Made by a program: the position numbers and the translations under genes. The notes under the pieces are model-generated. The model made no database searches. It saw only the letters and a program-made list of their open reading frames with translations, and was not told where the DNA came from. A stretch of DNA of 64,000 nucleotides from Polyangium sp. 15x6 (GTDB lineage Bacteria > Myxococcota_A > Polyangia > Polyangiales > Polyangiaceae): NCBI RefSeq assembly GCF_029960785.1, contig NZ_JASBQE010000011.1, forward strand, positions 62,001-126,000. The letters are read 5' to 3'. This document shows, piece after piece, positions 7,486 through 23,598 of this stretch (position 1 is its first letter; every line of letters begins with the position of its first letter).

Positions 7486-9723
7486 TCAGTTGAAGAGCGT
7501 CTTCGAGGCGCCCGTCGCGAGGACCATCCGCTCGGCGAGCAGGCAAACGACGAACTGGTGGAACGAGGCCGCGAGGTGCGGCGCTTCGCGGGTCATGCGC
7601 TCGAGGGAGTCGAGCGAGAGGCGGTAGAGGACCGTGGGGCAGAGCGTGACGACCGTGGCCGAGCGGCGCGTGCCGAGGTAGAGGCCCGATTCGCCGACGA
7701 CGGTGCCCGGGCCCATCGTGCGCAAGCGCTTGGTCCTGCCGCCGTCGAGCTCGAGCCAGGCCGTGAGCTCGCCGGACTCGATGAGGTAGAGGTCCTTGGA
7801 GACGTCGCCCTGGCGGTAGATCTGGTAGCCCGCAGGTGCCTCGACACGCTCGAGGTACTCGAGGAAGCGGGAGACGAACTCGCGGGTGCGGAAGACACTC
7901 TCGAGTTCGTCGACGAGCTTCGTCGGCGGGAGCATGCTCGGCGGCGCGGCGCGCAGGATCAAGTTCTCGCACCACTCGAGGCCGTGATCGAGGTCGGGGA
8001 AGAAGCGGACGCGCTTCGATCCGTCGGCAAACCCGCCACGCTCGAGCTGCTTCTTGACCGCGCTCGGGAGGTCGGTGAGGACGAGCGTGACGCCGTTCGA
8101 CTCGGCGAGCTTGCGCAGGCGGACGAAGGAGAGGACCGCCGAGGAGTCGATGCCGTCGACGTGGCGGAAGTCGAGCAAGACGTACCGCGTGGGGCCGGGA
8201 TCGTCGCTGAGCATGCGGTGGTGCACGCTCTTGAGCAGCGAGTAGGAGGTGCCGAAGAAGATGTAGCCCTGGAGCTGGAGGATGTAGAGTTCCCTGCCGC
8301 GCTCCTCCAGCGTGAGCTCATCCCCGGCGCCACGCTCGACGTTGCTGCGGACGTCGGAGCCGACGGCCGCGCGCTTGATGACGTCGATGCGGCTGTAGTT
8401 GACCGCGAAGAGGACGGACGAGACGACGATGCCGACGCCGATGCCCGGGAGGAAGCCGATCCACGCGATGACGACGAGGATGATGACGACGAGGCCGTAC
8501 TCGACACGCGGGAGGCGGAACCAGGAGTCGTAGATGGTTTCGAGGAGGAAACCCGAGCCGAGAAAGACGAGCAGGCCGCCGAGGACGGGCTTCGGGAAGT
8601 ACGAGAAGACCGAGGCGCCGACGAAGAGGGCCGCGGCGCAGATGCACGCAGAGAGGATGCCCGCGACGCGGCTCTCGGCGCCGGCCTTGTGGTTCAAGGT
8701 CGACTCGCTGAGCGAGAGATACCCGACCATGCCGAAGCCGAGGCCCGCCGCGAGGTTCGCGATGCCCGTCGCGCGAAGCTCACGATCGAGGTCGATCTCG
8801 CGCTCGGTCGCGATCTCGAGGCCCGAGGCGTTGAGCAGGATCGAGATCGTCGCGAGCATGGTGATCGCGAGGAGGTTGCCCGCGTTCGCGCCGATCTCGG
8901 CCCAGTCGATGCGCAGCGCATCGGAGGGCGCCATCGGCGGCCAGAGGGCGCCGCTCGGGAAGGGGCCGAGGAGCATGCCGCGCTCGAGGGCCTCGGAGAC
9001 GGTGCCACCCGCCGCATACAGGACGCCGTAAAACATGGCGACGGCGAAGACGAGCAGGCCCGGCAAGAGCAAGAAGTGGTGGTAGCGCCGGAGCAGGATC
9101 GTCAAGAAGGCCCCGAGCGTGAGGCCCGGGACCCAGTTGACGATCGCCTCCGCGCGGAGGAGCAGCGGCAACGACGCGAGGGAGAACTCGGTCCCCGCCA
9201 TGACGGAAATGGATCCCGTGAGGAGGAGCCAGCCCGTGCCCGCGAGGAAGCCGCCAACGACGGGATACGGGATGAAGCGGACGAGGGTGCCGAGGCGAAG
9301 GCCGCCGAGGACGAGGAAGAGGCCACCCGTGACGAGCGCGGAGAGCGAGCAGACCGCGACGATCGTGGGGAACGGGTCGCCGCCCTTGGCCGTGATGTGA
9401 CTGCCGATCGCCGAGGCGACGAGGGCGAGGACGACGGCCGTGTTCTCCTGCGGCGCGGCGATGACGGGGCGGAAGGAGCTGCCGAGGGCGACGATCGCGC
9501 CGATGATGGCCGATCCCGCGAGGGCCATGCCGATGCCCGCCGGCAGGTACTTCGTGAGGTTGCCCGAGAAGATGAGCGCCGCGAGCGTGATGCTGAACGT
9601 AGCGACGAGGGTGCCCGACATGGCGCCCGCGAAGAGGCCGGAGAGGAGGCGCGATCCACGGAGTCCACGCCCGACAGAGGGCGCGGGCGTCGAAGGTATC
9701 GGCGGACTCTGCTGCCCTTCCAT
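7486..9723 (-). CDS. SulP-family anion transporter with STAS and cyclic-nucleotide-binding domains
   Basis: 745 residues. The N-terminal 440 or so residues are multi-spanning and SulP-like (for example LSGLFAGAMSGTLVATFS and the conserved AAPQENTAVVLA region). A STAS domain follows (about 500-610, with VLLDFRHVDGIDSSAVLSF). A C-terminal cNMP-binding domain (about 625-740) carries a recognisable phosphate-binding cassette, GESGLYLGTRRSATV. SulP proteins move sulfate, bicarbonate or dicarboxylates; the substrate cannot be read from sequence. The STAS-cNMP arrangement implies gating by a cyclic nucleotide, and the nearest upstream gene on the same strand encodes a double class III cyclase. It is the first gene of the row leading to the tubulin-like gene, with the VWA start 13 bp beyond its stop. 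The ATG lacks a strong ribosome site. Confidence 0.9.
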   Translation of the reverse strand: MEGQQSPPIPSTPAPSVGRGLRGSRLLSGLFAGAMSGTLVATFSITLAALIFSGNLTKYLPAGIGMALAGSAIIGAIVALGSSFRPVIAAPQENTAVVLALVASAIGSHITAKGGDPFPTIVAVCSLSALVTGGLFLVLGGLRLGTLVRFIPYPVVGGFLAGTGWLLLTGSISVMAGTEFSLASLPLLLRAEAIVNWVPGLTLGAFLTILLRRYHHFLLLPGLLVFAVAMFYGVLYAAGGTVSEALERGMLLGPFPSGALWPPMAPSDALRIDWAEIGANAGNLLAITMLATISILLNASGLEIATEREIDLDRELRATGIANLAAGLGFGMVGYLSLSESTLNHKAGAESRVAGILSACICAAALFVGASVFSYFPKPVLGGLLVFLGSGFLLETIYDSWFRLPRVEYGLVVIILVVIAWIGFLPGIGVGIVVSSVLFAVNYSRIDVIKRAAVGSDVRSNVERGAGDELTLEERGRELYILQLQGYIFFGTSYSLLKSVHHRMLSDDPGPTRYVLLDFRHVDGIDSSAVLSFVRLRKLAESNGVTLVLTDLPSAVKKQLERGGFADGSKRVRFFPDLDHGLEWCENLILRAAPPSMLPPTKLVDELESVFRTREFVSRFLEYLERVEAPAGYQIYRQGDVSKDLYLIESGELTAWLELDGGRTKRLRTMGPGTVVGESGLYLGTRRSATVVTLCPTVLYRLSLDSLERMTREAPHLAASFHQFVVCLLAERMVLATGASKTLFN

Positions 9724-9842
9724 CGTCGTCGAGTGAGGCTCGAGGGGCCGTCATCTTCGGCGAACAGGGGCTCCCCTGGCAAGGGCGGCGCACATGGTCG
9801 CCCTCCGGCGCACAAGCCCGCTGGTCTCTTCTTGGGCCGTGG

Positions 9843-10162
9843 CGCCGGGGCGCCGCCCCGGACCCCGCGGGGGCTGTTCGCCCCTCGACCCGAACCAGCG
9901 CAAGCGCTGGACTCGGGATGGAAGAACTGCGCGTTGCGCAGTTCTTCCATCGGGCCCGTTGGAAGACCAGGGACAGCGTTGCCAGTCGAACGTCAGCGCG
10001 GCTGTCTTGGTTGGCAGGGTCGTCGCCCGTCTTGACTCGGCCTGTGCGATGAACTGCGCGGAGCGCAGTTCATCGTCCCGGGTCCAGCGCTTGCGCTGGT
10101 CCGGGTCCAGGGGCGGATAGCCCCGGTGGGGCCTGGGGCAACGCCCCAGCGAAGCGCCGCCC
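9843..10162. repeat. Intergenic long-inverted-repeat element, copy A
   Basis: This non-coding element fills most of the 454-bp gap between the cyclase and SulP genes. It consists of two half-units of about 105 bp in opposite orientation around a spacer of about 95 bp. The left half contains perfect hairpins: CCGGGGC-N3-GCCCCGG (9845-9861), CCAGCGC-AA-GCGCTGG (9895-9910) and a 15-bp stem ATGGAAGAACTGCGC with a GTT loop (9918-9950). The right half mirrors it with a 13-bp stem around GAACTGCGC (10047-10075), CCAGCGC-TT-GCGCTGG (10084-10099) and CTGGGGC-N3-GCCCCAG (10133-10149). The same modules recur at 15399-15700 (inverted) and 23391-23598 (shortened). There is no ORF with plausible codon use. 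It may be a REP/BIME-like or MITE-like element, or a structured RNA or terminator. Confidence 0.8.
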
Positions 10163-10177
10163 CAATGAGACACATGC

Positions 10178-13100
10178 TCAGCCGAGCTCGCGGGCGATGG
10201 CCTGGGCCTGCTCCTGGAGCGCGACGGCCTCGTTCACGTGGCCCTGCTGGTGGTGCAGGCTGGCGAGGTCTCCCAGGATCTTGCCCTCGTCGCGGCGATT
10301 TCCAACCTTGCGCGCGATGTCGAGGGCCTGCTCGAAGAAGGTGCGCGAGAGTTCGAAGCGGCCTTGCTCCTTGTGCAAGACCGCGAGGCTCTTCAGCGCG
10401 AGCCCCTCGTTCCACAAGCTCTGCGCCTCACGCGCCGTCGTGAGGGCCTGCTCGTAGAAGGCGCGCGCGCTCTCGATGCGGCCCGTCGCCCAGTTGACGC
10501 GGCCGAGGCCGAGGAGGCCGAGCGCCTCGGAGGCGCGATCGCCGAGCTTCTGCGCCTCGTCGAGGACACGCACGTGCTCCTGCATGGCCTCCTCGTGCCG
10601 GCCCTGGAGCTCGAGGACGTCGCGGCCGAACTCGTACCTGACGACGACGCTCTCCAGCGTGGGCTCGGTCGTGAGCTTGAAGTAGGCGCGGTACAGGCGC
10701 TTGGCCTCGCCGTGGGCGTAACGCTCCGCGGCCTTGCGCGCGCCGGCGAGGAAGTACCAGCGGGCGCGCTTCGGATTTCCCGCGCGTTGCCAGTGGCGCC
10801 CGAGCGCCGTCTGCTGACCCGTGAGCTCGTCCTCGTGCACGATCTCGATGGCCTCGGCCGCGCGGCGATGCAGCTCTTGCAAGCGCGCGCGGGACTGCAT
10901 CTCGTACGCCGCGTTCCGGAGGAGCACGTTGCTGAAGCGGTAGCGGCCCTTCGACATCGGCGACCAGATGCACTGCTCCTCGCCGACGCGGACGAGCTCG
11001 GGCAGGAGCGGGTCGTCGTCCATCATGCGCGAGAGGATGCGCAGGTCGAACTCGCGGCCGAGCGTGGCCGCGGCCTGGACGACACGCTTGACCTTGGGCT
11101 CGAGGCGATCGAGCCGCGCGATGAGCAGGCTGTTGACGTCGTTCGGGAGGAGGAAAATGCTCGGCGTCGAGACGCCCGTGTCCTCCTTCTCCTTCTTCTT
11201 GCCCGCGAGCTGATTCGCTTCGAGCCAGAACGTCATGATCTCCTGCGCGAAGAACGGATTGCCGTTCGCGTTTTCGCTCAGGAACATGGCGAGGACGTCG
11301 GAGACGGGGCCGCCCATGAGGCCCTCGGCGAGCTCGCGCAGCTTCTCGCGCGAGAGCGGGCCGAGCGTCACGGCGTACTGCGGGACGTTGTCGTCGAGCT
11401 CGATGCGGAAGGGGCTGCCGTCGTCGTTGTTGCGGCAGGTGCAGAGGATCGCGACGGGGCAATCCTTCACCGCCTGCGCGACGTGGCTGATCGCTTCGAG
11501 CGAGTCGCCGTCGGCCCAGTGCGCGTCTTCGAGGTGGAAGATCACGGGCTGGAGGAGGCTCTCGGCGCGCAGCCAGAGCGAGAGCGCGGAGAGTGCGCCG
11601 GCGAAGCGGAGCTTCGGATCCATGCGCTCGTAGACCGAGCCGTCCCAGCGGATGCCGATCATCGCGGCGAAGATGCTGCGGGCCTTTTCGAGCTCGCGCT
11701 TGAGCAGAGCCTCGCTGTCCGGGAGGCGGTCGATCAAACGATCGAGGGCGTCGTCGAAGTTGACGTGCCGCTCCTCGCGGCCCGTCGCCGACGACTGCGC
11801 GAAGTACTCCTTCAACGCGTACTCGAAGGGGTTCAAGCTCGAGCGGAGCGTCTGATCACAGCGCGCGTCGATCCAGAGGATCGGCCGGTCTTTCTTGTTG
11901 TCCTCGAGCTTGCGGCGGTACGTGTCGACGAGGAAGCTCTTGCCGAGGCCGGGTTCGCCGTCGACGTAGGTGATGCCCGCGTTCTGGCCGGCGAAGATCG
12001 GGCCGAGGTGCGTGGTGAGCGCGAGGAGCTCCTCTTCGCGCCCCACGAGGCCGCGGGCGAGGAACTCGCGCTGCACGGCGACACGCTTGCGATCGAGCGT
12101 GTAGGCGCTGATCGGCTGCTCGAAGCCCTTGAAGAGGTGATCGCCCGTGGGCTTGAAGTGGTGCGTGCCCTGGGCGCGGACGGAGACCTCGCCGTCGCAC
12201 CAGAGTTCCTTCCACGGCGCCTTCATCATGAGGCGCGCCGCGAGGTTCGTCGCGGGGCCGAGGCAGGCGAACTCCTGACGCTCGGTGCCGCCGTTGAAGC
12301 CCGCGTACCGGAGGCCGTGGGTGATGCCCGCGCGGATCTGCATCCCCTTCGGCGCGTTCTTGCGGAGGCCGAGCGCGAAGTCGAGCGCGCGCTCGGTGTC
12401 GTTCTCGTGCGTGATCGGAGCGCCGAAGTGGATGAGGCAGTTGATGCCCTTGTCGCCCGAGTCGACGCTCGTGAACGTGCCGCCGTAGCGGCTCGCCTCG
12501 ACGTCGACGAGCTTGATGAGCTCCTCGAAGCTCGGGATCTGATCGAACGAGAGGAAGACGCTCGTGACGTGGCGGAACTCGCCCTGCGGCGGCATGTCGC
12601 GGATCCCAGGCGGGACGAAGTGCGCGCCGTCGCCGTGCGGGCGGACGCGCGGCACGGGCGGGAGCGGCATGTCGGAGACGTCCGCGAGCTTGAGGACGCC
12701 CTCGGCGACGGGCGTGACGGCGCGGCCCGGGATGCGCTGCTGGAAGGCGTGATCCATGAGGATGTCGCCCTTCTCGGCGTGGTGCTCGATCGAGGCGCAC
12801 TTGTCGATCGCTTGGCCGCGGAAGTAGCTGTACGCGCGCTCGGGCGAGGTGCGGACGATGCCCCATTCGACGGCGCCCCACGAGAGGCCGACCTTGTACG
12901 AGAAGGGGAAGGTGCCGAAGCGCGTGGCGCGGACGGCGCGGCTCAAGAAGAACTGGCGCATCTTGAGCGCCGCGGCGAGCGCGTGCTCGGCGACGTTGCG
13001 CCCCGTCGAGTGCGGGAAGACGGCCGTGAACGCGTCGCCCGCGAAGCCGACGATGATCCCGCCGAGCTCGTGCACCGCCCCGATGAGCGGGTCGAAGTAG

Positions 13101-13273
13101 AAGCGCAACGTGCCGGCGAGGATCTCGGCGCCCTCGCGGCCATGCGGGAAGAGCTTCTCCGTGAGGTTCGTGAAGCCCGGGATGTCGATGAAGAGCGCCG
13201 CCGCCGCGAAGTTGCCTTCGGTCTTCCCCCTCGTGTCCTGGTACAGGATGAAGTCGGGGACGAGCGGGTTCAT
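10178..13273 (-). CDS. Double class III nucleotidyl cyclase - AAA/STAND ATPase - TPR signalling protein
   Basis: 1031 residues from the ATG at 13273 (MNPLVPDF), just before the first domain; an upstream in-frame start adds 70 residues of shadow-like sequence. Cyclase domain 1 (about 20-190) has both metal-binding Asp motifs, ALFIDIPGFTNLTEK (D30) and GFAGDAFTAVF (D80). A second cyclase-like domain (about 233-360) keeps VDSGDKGINCLIHFG but has an altered first motif, VFLSFDQIPS, and may be inactive or regulatory. LVGREEELL begins an ATPase domain with Walker A GEPGLGKS (439-446). The C-terminal third is helical TPR-type repeats. No TM segment is seen. Known architecture: cyclase-ATPase-TPR proteins are common in myxobacteria and produce cAMP or cGMP. 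The adjacent cNMP-binding SulP transporter is a plausible target. Confidence 0.88.
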   Translation of the reverse strand: MNPLVPDFILYQDTRGKTEGNFAAAALFIDIPGFTNLTEKLFPHGREGAEILAGTLRFYFDPLIGAVHELGGIIVGFAGDAFTAVFPHSTGRNVAEHALAAALKMRQFFLSRAVRATRFGTFPFSYKVGLSWGAVEWGIVRTSPERAYSYFRGQAIDKCASIEHHAEKGDILMDHAFQQRIPGRAVTPVAEGVLKLADVSDMPLPPVPRVRPHGDGAHFVPPGIRDMPPQGEFRHVTSVFLSFDQIPSFEELIKLVDVEASRYGGTFTSVDSGDKGINCLIHFGAPITHENDTERALDFALGLRKNAPKGMQIRAGITHGLRYAGFNGGTERQEFACLGPATNLAARLMMKAPWKELWCDGEVSVRAQGTHHFKPTGDHLFKGFEQPISAYTLDRKRVAVQREFLARGLVGREEELLALTTHLGPIFAGQNAGITYVDGEPGLGKSFLVDTYRRKLEDNKKDRPILWIDARCDQTLRSSLNPFEYALKEYFAQSSATGREERHVNFDDALDRLIDRLPDSEALLKRELEKARSIFAAMIGIRWDGSVYERMDPKLRFAGALSALSLWLRAESLLQPVIFHLEDAHWADGDSLEAISHVAQAVKDCPVAILCTCRNNDDGSPFRIELDDNVPQYAVTLGPLSREKLRELAEGLMGGPVSDVLAMFLSENANGNPFFAQEIMTFWLEANQLAGKKKEKEDTGVSTPSIFLLPNDVNSLLIARLDRLEPKVKRVVQAAATLGREFDLRILSRMMDDDPLLPELVRVGEEQCIWSPMSKGRYRFSNVLLRNAAYEMQSRARLQELHRRAAEAIEIVHEDELTGQQTALGRHWQRAGNPKRARWYFLAGARKAAERYAHGEAKRLYRAYFKLTTEPTLESVVVRYEFGRDVLELQGRHEEAMQEHVRVLDEAQKLGDRASEALGLLGLGRVNWATGRIESARAFYEQALTTAREAQSLWNEGLALKSLAVLHKEQGRFELSRTFFEQALDIARKVGNRRDEGKILGDLASLHHQQGHVNEAVALQEQAQAIARELG

Positions 13274-13629
13274 GTCCGTGGATTCCGGCGCTCCGAAAAG
13301 CGGCGGGCTCCCCCACCGCGGCGCCCCGGCGGTCCCCCATGACGCATGGAGCGAAGTGCTCGATGCGTACGTGGGCGCCACGCGACGCCAGACGCCAGAG
13401 TGCAAGGGAAGCGAGCAAAAATCAACGGAAGCTTGACGACAGCACGCACGCGATTCCGCGGGCGTTGGCTGTCCTCCCATCACGCCCGCGGGTGGCAGGA
13501 AAGTGGCGGAGCCGCTCGATACCCCCTTGGCGACCTCTCGGGCCTGGGATACGCAAAAAGTGCCCCCGTCCTTCCGTCGACACGGCGCCGCGACGATGCG
13601 CGGCGACGAGGGGGTGCGTGAAGAGACGC
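13274..13629. promoter_or_regulatory. Divergent intergenic region with a 9-bp inverted repeat
   Basis: This 356-bp gap separates the minus-strand cyclase gene from the plus-strand Pro-rich protein gene. The only clear structure is a perfect inverted repeat, CCGCGGGCG at 13456-13464 and CGCCCGCGG at 13483-13491, with an 18-bp spacer. It could be a regulator site shared by both promoters. The ORFs crossing the gap are Arg-rich and do not look coding. I see no convincing -35/-10 pair. Confidence 0.35.
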
Positions 13630-15169: not shown

Positions 15170-15398
15170 TCGTTTGCCCCGGGGATGCGCTGGTTTTTCC
15201 CGGTGATGATTGCGGGCTGCTCGGCGACGTCCGGGCGGGAGCGGAGGCAGGAGCGAGCAGGGAGAAGCGCGTGCATCGCATCTTCGGCTCAGGAACCGTG
15301 CGCGCAGTGAACGATTCGACCGCCACCGTTGCATTCGCCATCGGCACCAAGACGCTCGCCCACCGCAAGACCTGAGGCGCATGCGTCCTGAGGCGCAT

Positions 15399-15700
15399 CG
15401 CTGGGGCGTTGCCCCAGGCCCCACCGGGGCTATCCGCCCCTGGACCCGGACCAGCGCAAGCGCTGGACCCAGGGTCGATGAACTGCGCGATGCGCAGTTC
15501 ATCGAACAGGCCGAGTCGAGACCTGCTACGACCGCTGCCACTCAAGACAACGGCGCTGCCCTTTCAACGGGCAACGCCGTCTCACCGGCCCGTTGGAAGA
15601 ACTGCCATCGCGCAGTTCTTCCACCCTCGGTCCAGGCCGTGCCTGGTCCGGGTCGAGGGGCGGACAGCCCCCGCGGGGTCCGGGGCAGCGCCCCGGCGAC
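15399..15700. repeat. Intergenic long-inverted-repeat element, copy B (inverted relative to copy A)
   Basis: Read on the plus strand, this copy matches the reverse complement of copy A along its whole length: CTGGGGC-N3-GCCCCAG, CCAGCGCAAGCGCTGG, the GATGAACTGCGC hairpin, a spacer, the GGAAGAACTG hairpin (one arm slightly decayed), then CCGGGGC-N3-GCCCCGG (15680-15696). The spacer has its own inverted repeat, ACGGCGCTGCCC against GGGCAACGCCGT (about 15550-15580), not present in A. A short direct repeat, CTGAGGCGCAT, sits at the left border (about 15371-15398). It occupies the gap between the TM_helix gene and the glyoxalase-fold gene. The rest of that 681-bp gap (15170-15398 and 15701-15787) shows no gene. 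Confidence 0.8.
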
Positions 15701-15787
15701 GCGCCGTGACCCGGTTCGCGTGATTGCAGACGAAACGGCTTGACCGCTGGAATGCAGAAACTAGCCTTTCGATATCAAGGAGATTGC

Positions 15788-23368: not shown

Positions 23369-23390
23369 CCTCTCTCTCTGGGAGGCGCTT

Positions 23391-23598
23391 CGCCGGGGCG
23401 CTGCCCCGGACCCCGCGGGGGCTGCCAGTCACGGCGGTCTTGGTTGGCAGGGTCGTCGCCGGTCTTGCCTCGGCCTGTTCGATGAACTGCGCATCGCGCA
23501 GTTCATCGACCAAGGGTCCAGCGCTTGCGCTGGTCCGGGTCCAGGGGTGGACAACCCCTGGTGGGGCCTGGGGCAACGCCCCAGCGCGGCGGCCCCAA
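23391..23598. repeat. Intergenic inverted-repeat element, copy C (internally deleted)
   Basis: Same orientation as copy A. It begins with CCGGGGC-N3-GCCCCGG and the CCCCGCGGGG palindrome, then jumps from GGGGGCT straight to GCCAGTC. It so lacks about 105 bp present in A (the inner part of the left half-unit, including the 15-bp stem). The spacer segment GTCTTGGTTGGCAGGGTCGT and the complete right half follow: the GATGAACTGCGC hairpin, CCAGCGC-TT-GCGCTGG and CTGGGGC-N3-GCCCCAG. It fills the 245-bp gap between two convergent genes, where its hairpins could serve as a bidirectional terminator. Confidence 0.8.

Follow-up and report, generated by a model that had tools for sequence, protein, structure and literature searches.

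Copy A, the element at issue, lies between two minus-strand genes in the window, by which we mean the whole 64-kb stretch of DNA analyzed (C22:62001-126000 of Polyangium sp. 15x6, a soil myxobacterium whose genome comprises 13.38 Mb in 275 contigs). One neighbor encodes a SulP-type sulfate permease with STAS and cNMP-binding domains (7486-9723, minus strand), and copy A is upstream of this gene; the other encodes a guanylate cyclase/AAA/TPR protein (10178-13483, minus strand), the stop codon of which falls inside the right terminal repeat of copy A. The full element spans 9821-10181 on the plus strand, as judged from homologous copies whose ends are intact and from a site that is empty in five relatives. 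The original prediction had set its limits at 9843-10162; this is a real element, but copy A reaches about 20 bp further on both sides, into degraded terminal repeats of 19-24 bp. On the left, the repeat is damaged and has lost its outer bases (9821-9836, plus strand, from by-eye comparison with the consensus CTGAGCATTGGTCTCATCTGGGAG), while the right repeat of 19 bp, CTGAGCATGTGTCTCATTG on the minus strand (10163-10181), matches the ends described below. No gene was called across the element, and the long open reading frames that cross it are mechanical, without a coding look, in line with the earlier claim that it is noncoding.

A family of paired four-hairpin units

Each half of copy A contains four hairpins (h1-h4) in the same order, all given on the plus strand: h1 at 9845-9861, h2 at 9870-9884, h3 at 9895-9910, and h4 at 9917-9951 in the left half, and h4 at 10047-10075, h3 at 10084-10099, h2 at 10110-10124, and h1 at 10133-10149 in the right half. 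Across the family, h1 takes the form GGGGC-NNN-GCCCC with flanks, h2 GGGGC-N5-GCCCC, and h3 CCAG...CTGG (the left h3 of copy A being CCAGCGCAAGCGCTGG; h3 is the hairpin in which an insertion sequence lands in relatives), and h4 has a stem of 13-16 bp with a 3-nt loop. In copy A, the perfect h4 arms measure 16 bp on the left (9917-9932/9936-9951, 3-nt loop) and 13 bp on the right (10047-10059/10063-10075). The outer 76-nt arms (9843-9918 and 10076-10151) pair without gaps at 84% complementarity, and the single-strand fold is far more stable than that of dinucleotide shuffles (z = -12.8), none of 100 shuffles being equally stable. The predicted facing half-units with perfect hairpins were therefore recovered, with four hairpins per half; the longest stem is 16 bp rather than 15 bp, and the halves are diverged relatives, not equal copies.

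Copies B and C, which had been assigned to the same family, proved to be real members. Copy B (15392-15706, minus strand) is 85% identical across the full query, and copy C (23380-23590, plus strand) is an internal deletion derivative without the left-half h3 and h4 and without some of the center. The gap that holds copy B also holds an element in Polyangium fumosum (L236), in the opposite orientation, which suggests either that insertion into this gap happened twice, independently, or that an inversion took place.

A whole-genome search of Polyangium sp. 15x6 with the 320-bp query gave 429 first-look candidates, 40 of which were scored; all 40 were 87-100% identical to the query, and nearly all were full-length. 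Thirty elements in three contigs (C198, C209, and C22; 828 kb) extrapolate to ~480 per genome, and we put the copy number at roughly 400-500. Five other Polyangium genomes, including Polyangium sp. 6x1 and P. fumosum DSM 14668, yielded 100-385 candidates apiece, so that the many genome-wide copies foreseen do exist. In 33 genomes of other genera from the same family or order, there was no clear family match, the marginal ones being in two genomes (G014 and G024). Four matches to the terminal-repeat pattern were found in viral contigs.

Elements are strongly clustered along the chromosome. In Polyangium sp. 15x6, C198 has 23 elements vs. 4 on C209, a contig of equal length. Of the 20-kb stretches taken without selection from contig C1 of genome G005, seven at 6.1-7.6 Mb (L313-L319) contained nine elements, and thirteen at 0-1.9, 9-10, and 11-13 Mb (L303-L312 and L320-L322) contained none. 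The four intact insertion sequence (IS) copies of the same genome are all at 5.3-8.0 Mb.

In addition to paired elements, seven solitary units of ~115 bp were found in 1.2 Mb of Polyangium sp. 15x6 (L091:3105-3221, L093:15245-15358, L119:3612-3727, L119:7744-7858, L240:14196-14310, L250:5048-5161, and L251:13565-13681), mostly between convergent genes. They keep the hairpin order and loop types of the paired element and have another h4 stem, TGCATCGACCGC-ATC-GCGGTCGATGCA; the unit at C198:83108 has an intermediate one. In alignment A2, MAFFT placed their h4 two columns out of register, and a formal pair count that included them was given up for this reason. They may represent a second REP-like family or derivatives of half-elements. 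One further copy (L069:1520-1793) seemingly joins a right-type half-unit to another of its kind, back to back, from which it follows that half-units can recombine.

Transposon ends and a probable Tn5-like helper

We then compared the ends of the family. The complete element is ~360 bp long and noncoding, and it is bounded by 19-bp ends, CTGAGCATTGGTCTCATCT(GGGAG). The outer sequence CTGAGCATTGGTCTCATCTGGGAG is common to many of 30 aligned copies and lies outside the homologues of 9843-10162; all 30 fetched matches to this pattern adjoin a core of the family. In 13 copies retaining both ends, the 9-bp flanks agree at 6.0 of 9 positions, compared to 3.0 when shuffled (maximum 4.46 in 2,000 shuffles), with a sharp peak at exactly 9 bp. 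Most copies are without one or both outer ends, and those without recognizable ends show a flank agreement of 2.3 of 9 and no duplication. A loose search for terminal inverted repeats that allowed indels returned only noise. A general preference for palindromic targets or terminator hairpins found no support (2-3 of 105 sites): flank complementarity in these 105 copies was not above that of permuted pairs (52 of 300 permutations reached the observed value, with crude end-trimming), and the clearly palindromic target sites were limited to L011/L067 and L047.

Relatives provide the corresponding empty sites. Copy A is missing from the syntenic position in all five Polyangium relatives, where the flanks align at ~89-96%, and empty orthologous sites were likewise found for C198:120560, C77:67644, and C77:84544. 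At C77:84544, the empty site in genome G004 is a single copy of the 9-bp target, located at a stop codon; in Polyangium sp. 15x6, the insertion is clean, with the target duplicated, and the terminal repeat provides a new TGA, as read by eye from the frame. The element at C198:120560 is inserted between two stops that are ~11 bp apart in relatives. Judged from relatives, its stop codon is the ancestral one, as is that of the gene ending in copy A.

A search for DDE_Tnp_1 domains across the genus led to an IS whose ends carry the same 19 nt. The copy at L152 (Polyangium sp. 6x1) is 1,503 bp long, ends in CTGAGCACTGGTCTCATC and GATGAGACCAATGCTCAG, is flanked on both sides by AACCAGGGC, and contains a single ORF of 475 aa. 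Helper IS copies measure 1,503 or 1,504 bp and encode transposases of 475-481 aa with Tnp_DNA_bind (PF14706), DDE_Tnp_1 (PF01609), and Dimer_Tnp_Tn5 (PF02281) domains; the protein matches Tn5 transposase structures in the PDB (E 7.7e-31, residues 10-381) and scores above the cut-off of NCBIfam NF033590 (IS4 family transposase). Target duplications are 9 of 9 at L152, L164, and L166 and 8 of 9 at L163. Tn5 has 19-bp ends starting with CTG and duplicates 9 bp of its target. With Tn5-type domains, 19-bp CTG-starting ends, and a 9-bp duplication, the helper belongs to the IS50/Tn5 group of the IS4 family, and it resembles Tn5/IS50 in transposase length as well; the 360-bp element differs in having no transposase, in its ends CTGAGCATTGGTCTCATCT, and in hosting the IS within its own hairpin.

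The helper is unevenly distributed. In genome G005, four copies are intact (84% protein identity); in P. fumosum, the contig ends carry many pieces of it; Polyangium sp. 15x6 and G001 have only remnants, and no helper IS was found in G004. The DDE_Tnp_1 matches of Polyangium sp. 15x6 were rejected as helpers, as they have no matching end pair, with a piece on C144 keeping a degenerate right end. Since only remnants of the helper are present, the copies in Polyangium sp. 15x6 may be immobile today. Remoter transposase relatives (about 29-59% identity) are present elsewhere in the order, in other genera. Among them, IS4/Tn5-like relatives in other Polyangiaceae (L288-L290; 42-46% identity) yielded nothing convincing in a search for similar ends and 9-bp duplications. 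Several P. fumosum contigs (L187-L212) terminate within the helper IS, which probably fragments that assembly.

Type II MITEs share their ends with an IS, without further similarity (PMC10969869). The family described here is shorter than 500 bp, noncoding, and dispersed, with IS-shared terminal repeats, duplications of the helper's length, and empty sites, and it is of type II because the outer 19 nt, and nothing else within the end sequences compared, are common to MITE and IS. Read from sequence, copy A is thus very probably a nonautonomous transposon, a type II MITE, with an identified Tn5-like helper IS. The original prediction was right about a large structured family that is longer and more modular than REP/BIME repeats (~360 bp, two four-hairpin units), and it missed the MITE: the terminal repeats, the 9-bp duplications, the empty sites, and the helper.

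The helper in turn inserts into the MITE. Four of the five intact IS copies sit in h3 of a MITE unit, at the targets AACCAGGGC, GGCACGGCC, or GCCCCTGGC, which argues that the helper uses its own MITE as a target. Another 18 IS ends were located, most of them at P. fumosum contig ends; 16 adjoin MITE sequence and 13 are in h3, the independent insertions being fewer than 18 since ends were counted. These insertion positions show that the MITE hairpins, chiefly h3, are the preferred landing site of the helper IS. ISs of the IS4 family (ISRm22) and others that target REP palindromes are already known (PMC1525189), as is the targeting of QMITE2 by IS1111 in Coxiella burnetii (PMC10969869); unlike the Polyangium MITE, those targets are not described as bearing the ends of the IS that targets them.

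Placement at gene ends and conservation of the hairpins

Genes were called with a simple codon-usage caller in 1.2 Mb of Polyangium sp. 15x6 (coding fraction 0.86-0.90). Of 48 elements placed, 31 are in convergent gaps, compared to 162 of 907 gene pairs overall (18%; Fisher p about 1e-13), in keeping with the preference for gene ends that had been anticipated; 10 are in tandem and 7 in divergent pairs, and one element overlaps a coding sequence by >60 bp. The median distance from the core is 13.5 bp to stops and 92 bp to starts. In a second locus set from the same genome, which partly overlaps the first and in which tandem pairs are commoner, 38 of 58 stops and 0 of 36 starts were within 30 bp, counts that include any insertions truncating the last codons such that the gene now ends in the terminal repeat. 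Stop codons were found within or adjoining MITE terminal repeats at gene 3' ends. Copies lie close to the stop even where a tandem gap is wide (for example, 13/332, 2/253, and 18/218 bp). Part of the placement is accounted for by avoidance of genes and promoters; such wide tandem gaps suggest a further factor besides avoidance, either insertion preference or retention.

Sequence variation was analyzed in 83 oriented copies, with deviation percentages taken from the Polyangium sp. 15x6 copies. Deviation from the consensus amounted to 2.9% of cells in stems, 11.6% in linkers and loops, 24.6% in the variable center between the half-units (9952-10046 in copy A), and 23% in the outer columns, so that stem positions are 4-8 times less variable than linkers and center. 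Cells changed on both sides of a stem with pairing kept numbered 106, compared to an average of 16 (maximum 23) after shuffling of the 3' letters; since cells count sequences rather than events, independent compensations are fewer than 106. Unpaired stem cells numbered 43, vs. 221 in shuffles, and part of the 43 reflect an alternative h3 pairing (GCACGGC). Compensatory pair types stem from several species, and h4 of the two halves differs by matched changes (GGAAG/CTTCC vs. CGATG/CATCG). The compensatory stem changes looked for were therefore present, and neither an absence of further copies nor uncompensated variation with random placement in coding DNA was found. The paired changes may go back to a small number of events in the family or to a mutational process. 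An in situ covariation test on orthologous copies was dropped; the common descent of such copies is unsure because copy B is reversed in P. fumosum and the centers of other pairs are diverged.

Mechanism, alternatives, and related systems

We propose that a Tn5/IS50-like transposase of the IS4 family would move the MITE in trans by cut-and-paste, recognizing the common 19-bp ends and duplicating 9 bp of target, a course of movement inferred from sequence. The interior consists of two REP-like four-hairpin units facing each other, and copies settle at gene 3' ends. There, the hairpins may be kept because they act in both directions, as stem-loops at the 3' ends of mRNAs from the adjoining genes that would terminate, insulate, or stabilize; such a role would make copies harmless or useful in place and leave the helper IS with somewhere safe to land. 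We consider this gene-end role of the hairpins possible, at somewhat under an even chance. No run of T follows any hairpin in the consensus, which makes classical intrinsic termination unlikely; Rho-dependent termination, insulation, or mRNA protection is possible.

Dispersal of REP/BIME-type palindromes by a RAYT (Y1 HUH transposase) would account for the hairpin units, their solo and inverted-pair arrangements, and an extragenic placement in convergent gaps as reported for REPs (PMC1525189). However, the element has terminal inverted repeats common to an IS4-family element and makes 9-bp duplications, whereas HUH enzymes make none, and the single Y1_Tnp match in Polyangium sp. 15x6 has no MITE end or unit at its locus. 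This origin is largely refuted for the 360-bp element, for which we regard it as very improbable, and may still apply to the solo units. An amplified structured RNA family or small-RNA gene would fit the strong stem covariation and the alternative stems of the solo units, but the transposon ends, duplications, and empty sites speak against it, and nowhere in the 64-kb window was there an Rfam match above the gathering score. In h4, moreover, wobble and A-C mismatches on the strand that would be read in from the neighboring gene numbered 2 and 9 (positions 1-14), so there is no RNA signature on that strand and no wobble-pair bias in h4 toward RNA read in from flanking genes. We judge an RNA gene highly unlikely.

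The covariation has one main rival explanation, self-correction of the palindromes, in which template switching at replication copies mutations from one arm to the other. The hairpins would then be unselected and the family purely selfish DNA, its placement at gene ends being a residue of purifying selection. One-sided h4 intermediates are indeed rare (about a dozen of 2,240 cells), although their scarcity fits selection too, and the missing G-U preference on the read-in strand is also consistent with self-correction. Avoidance alone can enrich convergent gaps, because insertion elsewhere would break genes or promoters. On the other hand, copies lie near stops even in wide tandem gaps, and loops hold their orientation, reading GAT or TCC outside-in with inverted forms rare, whereas strand switching tends to invert them; loop inversion as a signal of such switching was not seen, which is mild counter-evidence. 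This reading is a substantial possibility, if clearly short of probable; the conservation of the hairpins may reflect either selection at gene ends or palindrome correction.

Going further than the helper-mobilized MITE itself, IS and MITE might form a reciprocal pair: the IS would spread the MITE to gene 3' ends and then use the MITE hairpin as a near-exclusive landing pad, the MITE family would act as a genome-wide network of safe sites, and the host would have taken over the hairpins as bidirectional gene-end structures kept by compensatory mutation. We offer this full scheme as speculative and, taken as a whole, rather unlikely.

The MITE shares many features with Correia, ERIC, Chunjie, and QMITE2 elements, which are likewise <500 bp, noncoding, and intergenic, have IS-shared repeats and hundreds of copies, and show target duplications in young copies; up to 711 copies have been reported for ERIC (PMC10969869). 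It differs in being GC-rich, in its inverted four-hairpin units with covarying stems, in its position at stop codons, and in its Tn5-type helper. QMITE2 and IS1111 of C. burnetii offer the closer likeness of a MITE palindrome serving as an IS landing site (PMC10969869), but in Polyangium the IS that does the targeting carries the ends of the MITE itself. REP/BIME sequences and ISRm22 in Sinorhizobium meliloti share extragenic hairpins, convergent gaps, and insertion by an IS4-family element (PMC1525189), but REP units are not bounded by IS ends, whereas in Polyangium the two units together form a mobile element with 9-bp duplications. In the open-access literature searched, we found no description of this family and nothing joining Sorangium, MITEs, and inverted repeats, and the papers mentioning Polyangium together with insertion sequences were, by their titles and abstracts, on other subjects; myxobacteria and REPs were named together in one paper. 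The Polyangium MITE represents a new family within a known kind, and its features form an unusual combination.

Bacterial MITEs are usually portrayed as decaying relics. In contrast, this family has hundreds of copies per genome, with multi-hairpin structures preserved through matched changes, lying next to stop codons, and targeted by an IS that carries their own ends. The helper IS may help to explain broken draft assemblies in Polyangium, several P. fumosum contigs ending in it. The family also provides a testable case for the origin of REP-like extragenic palindromes from insertion sequences and their lasting tie to them, and for whether such repeats turn into working 3' ends of host genes.
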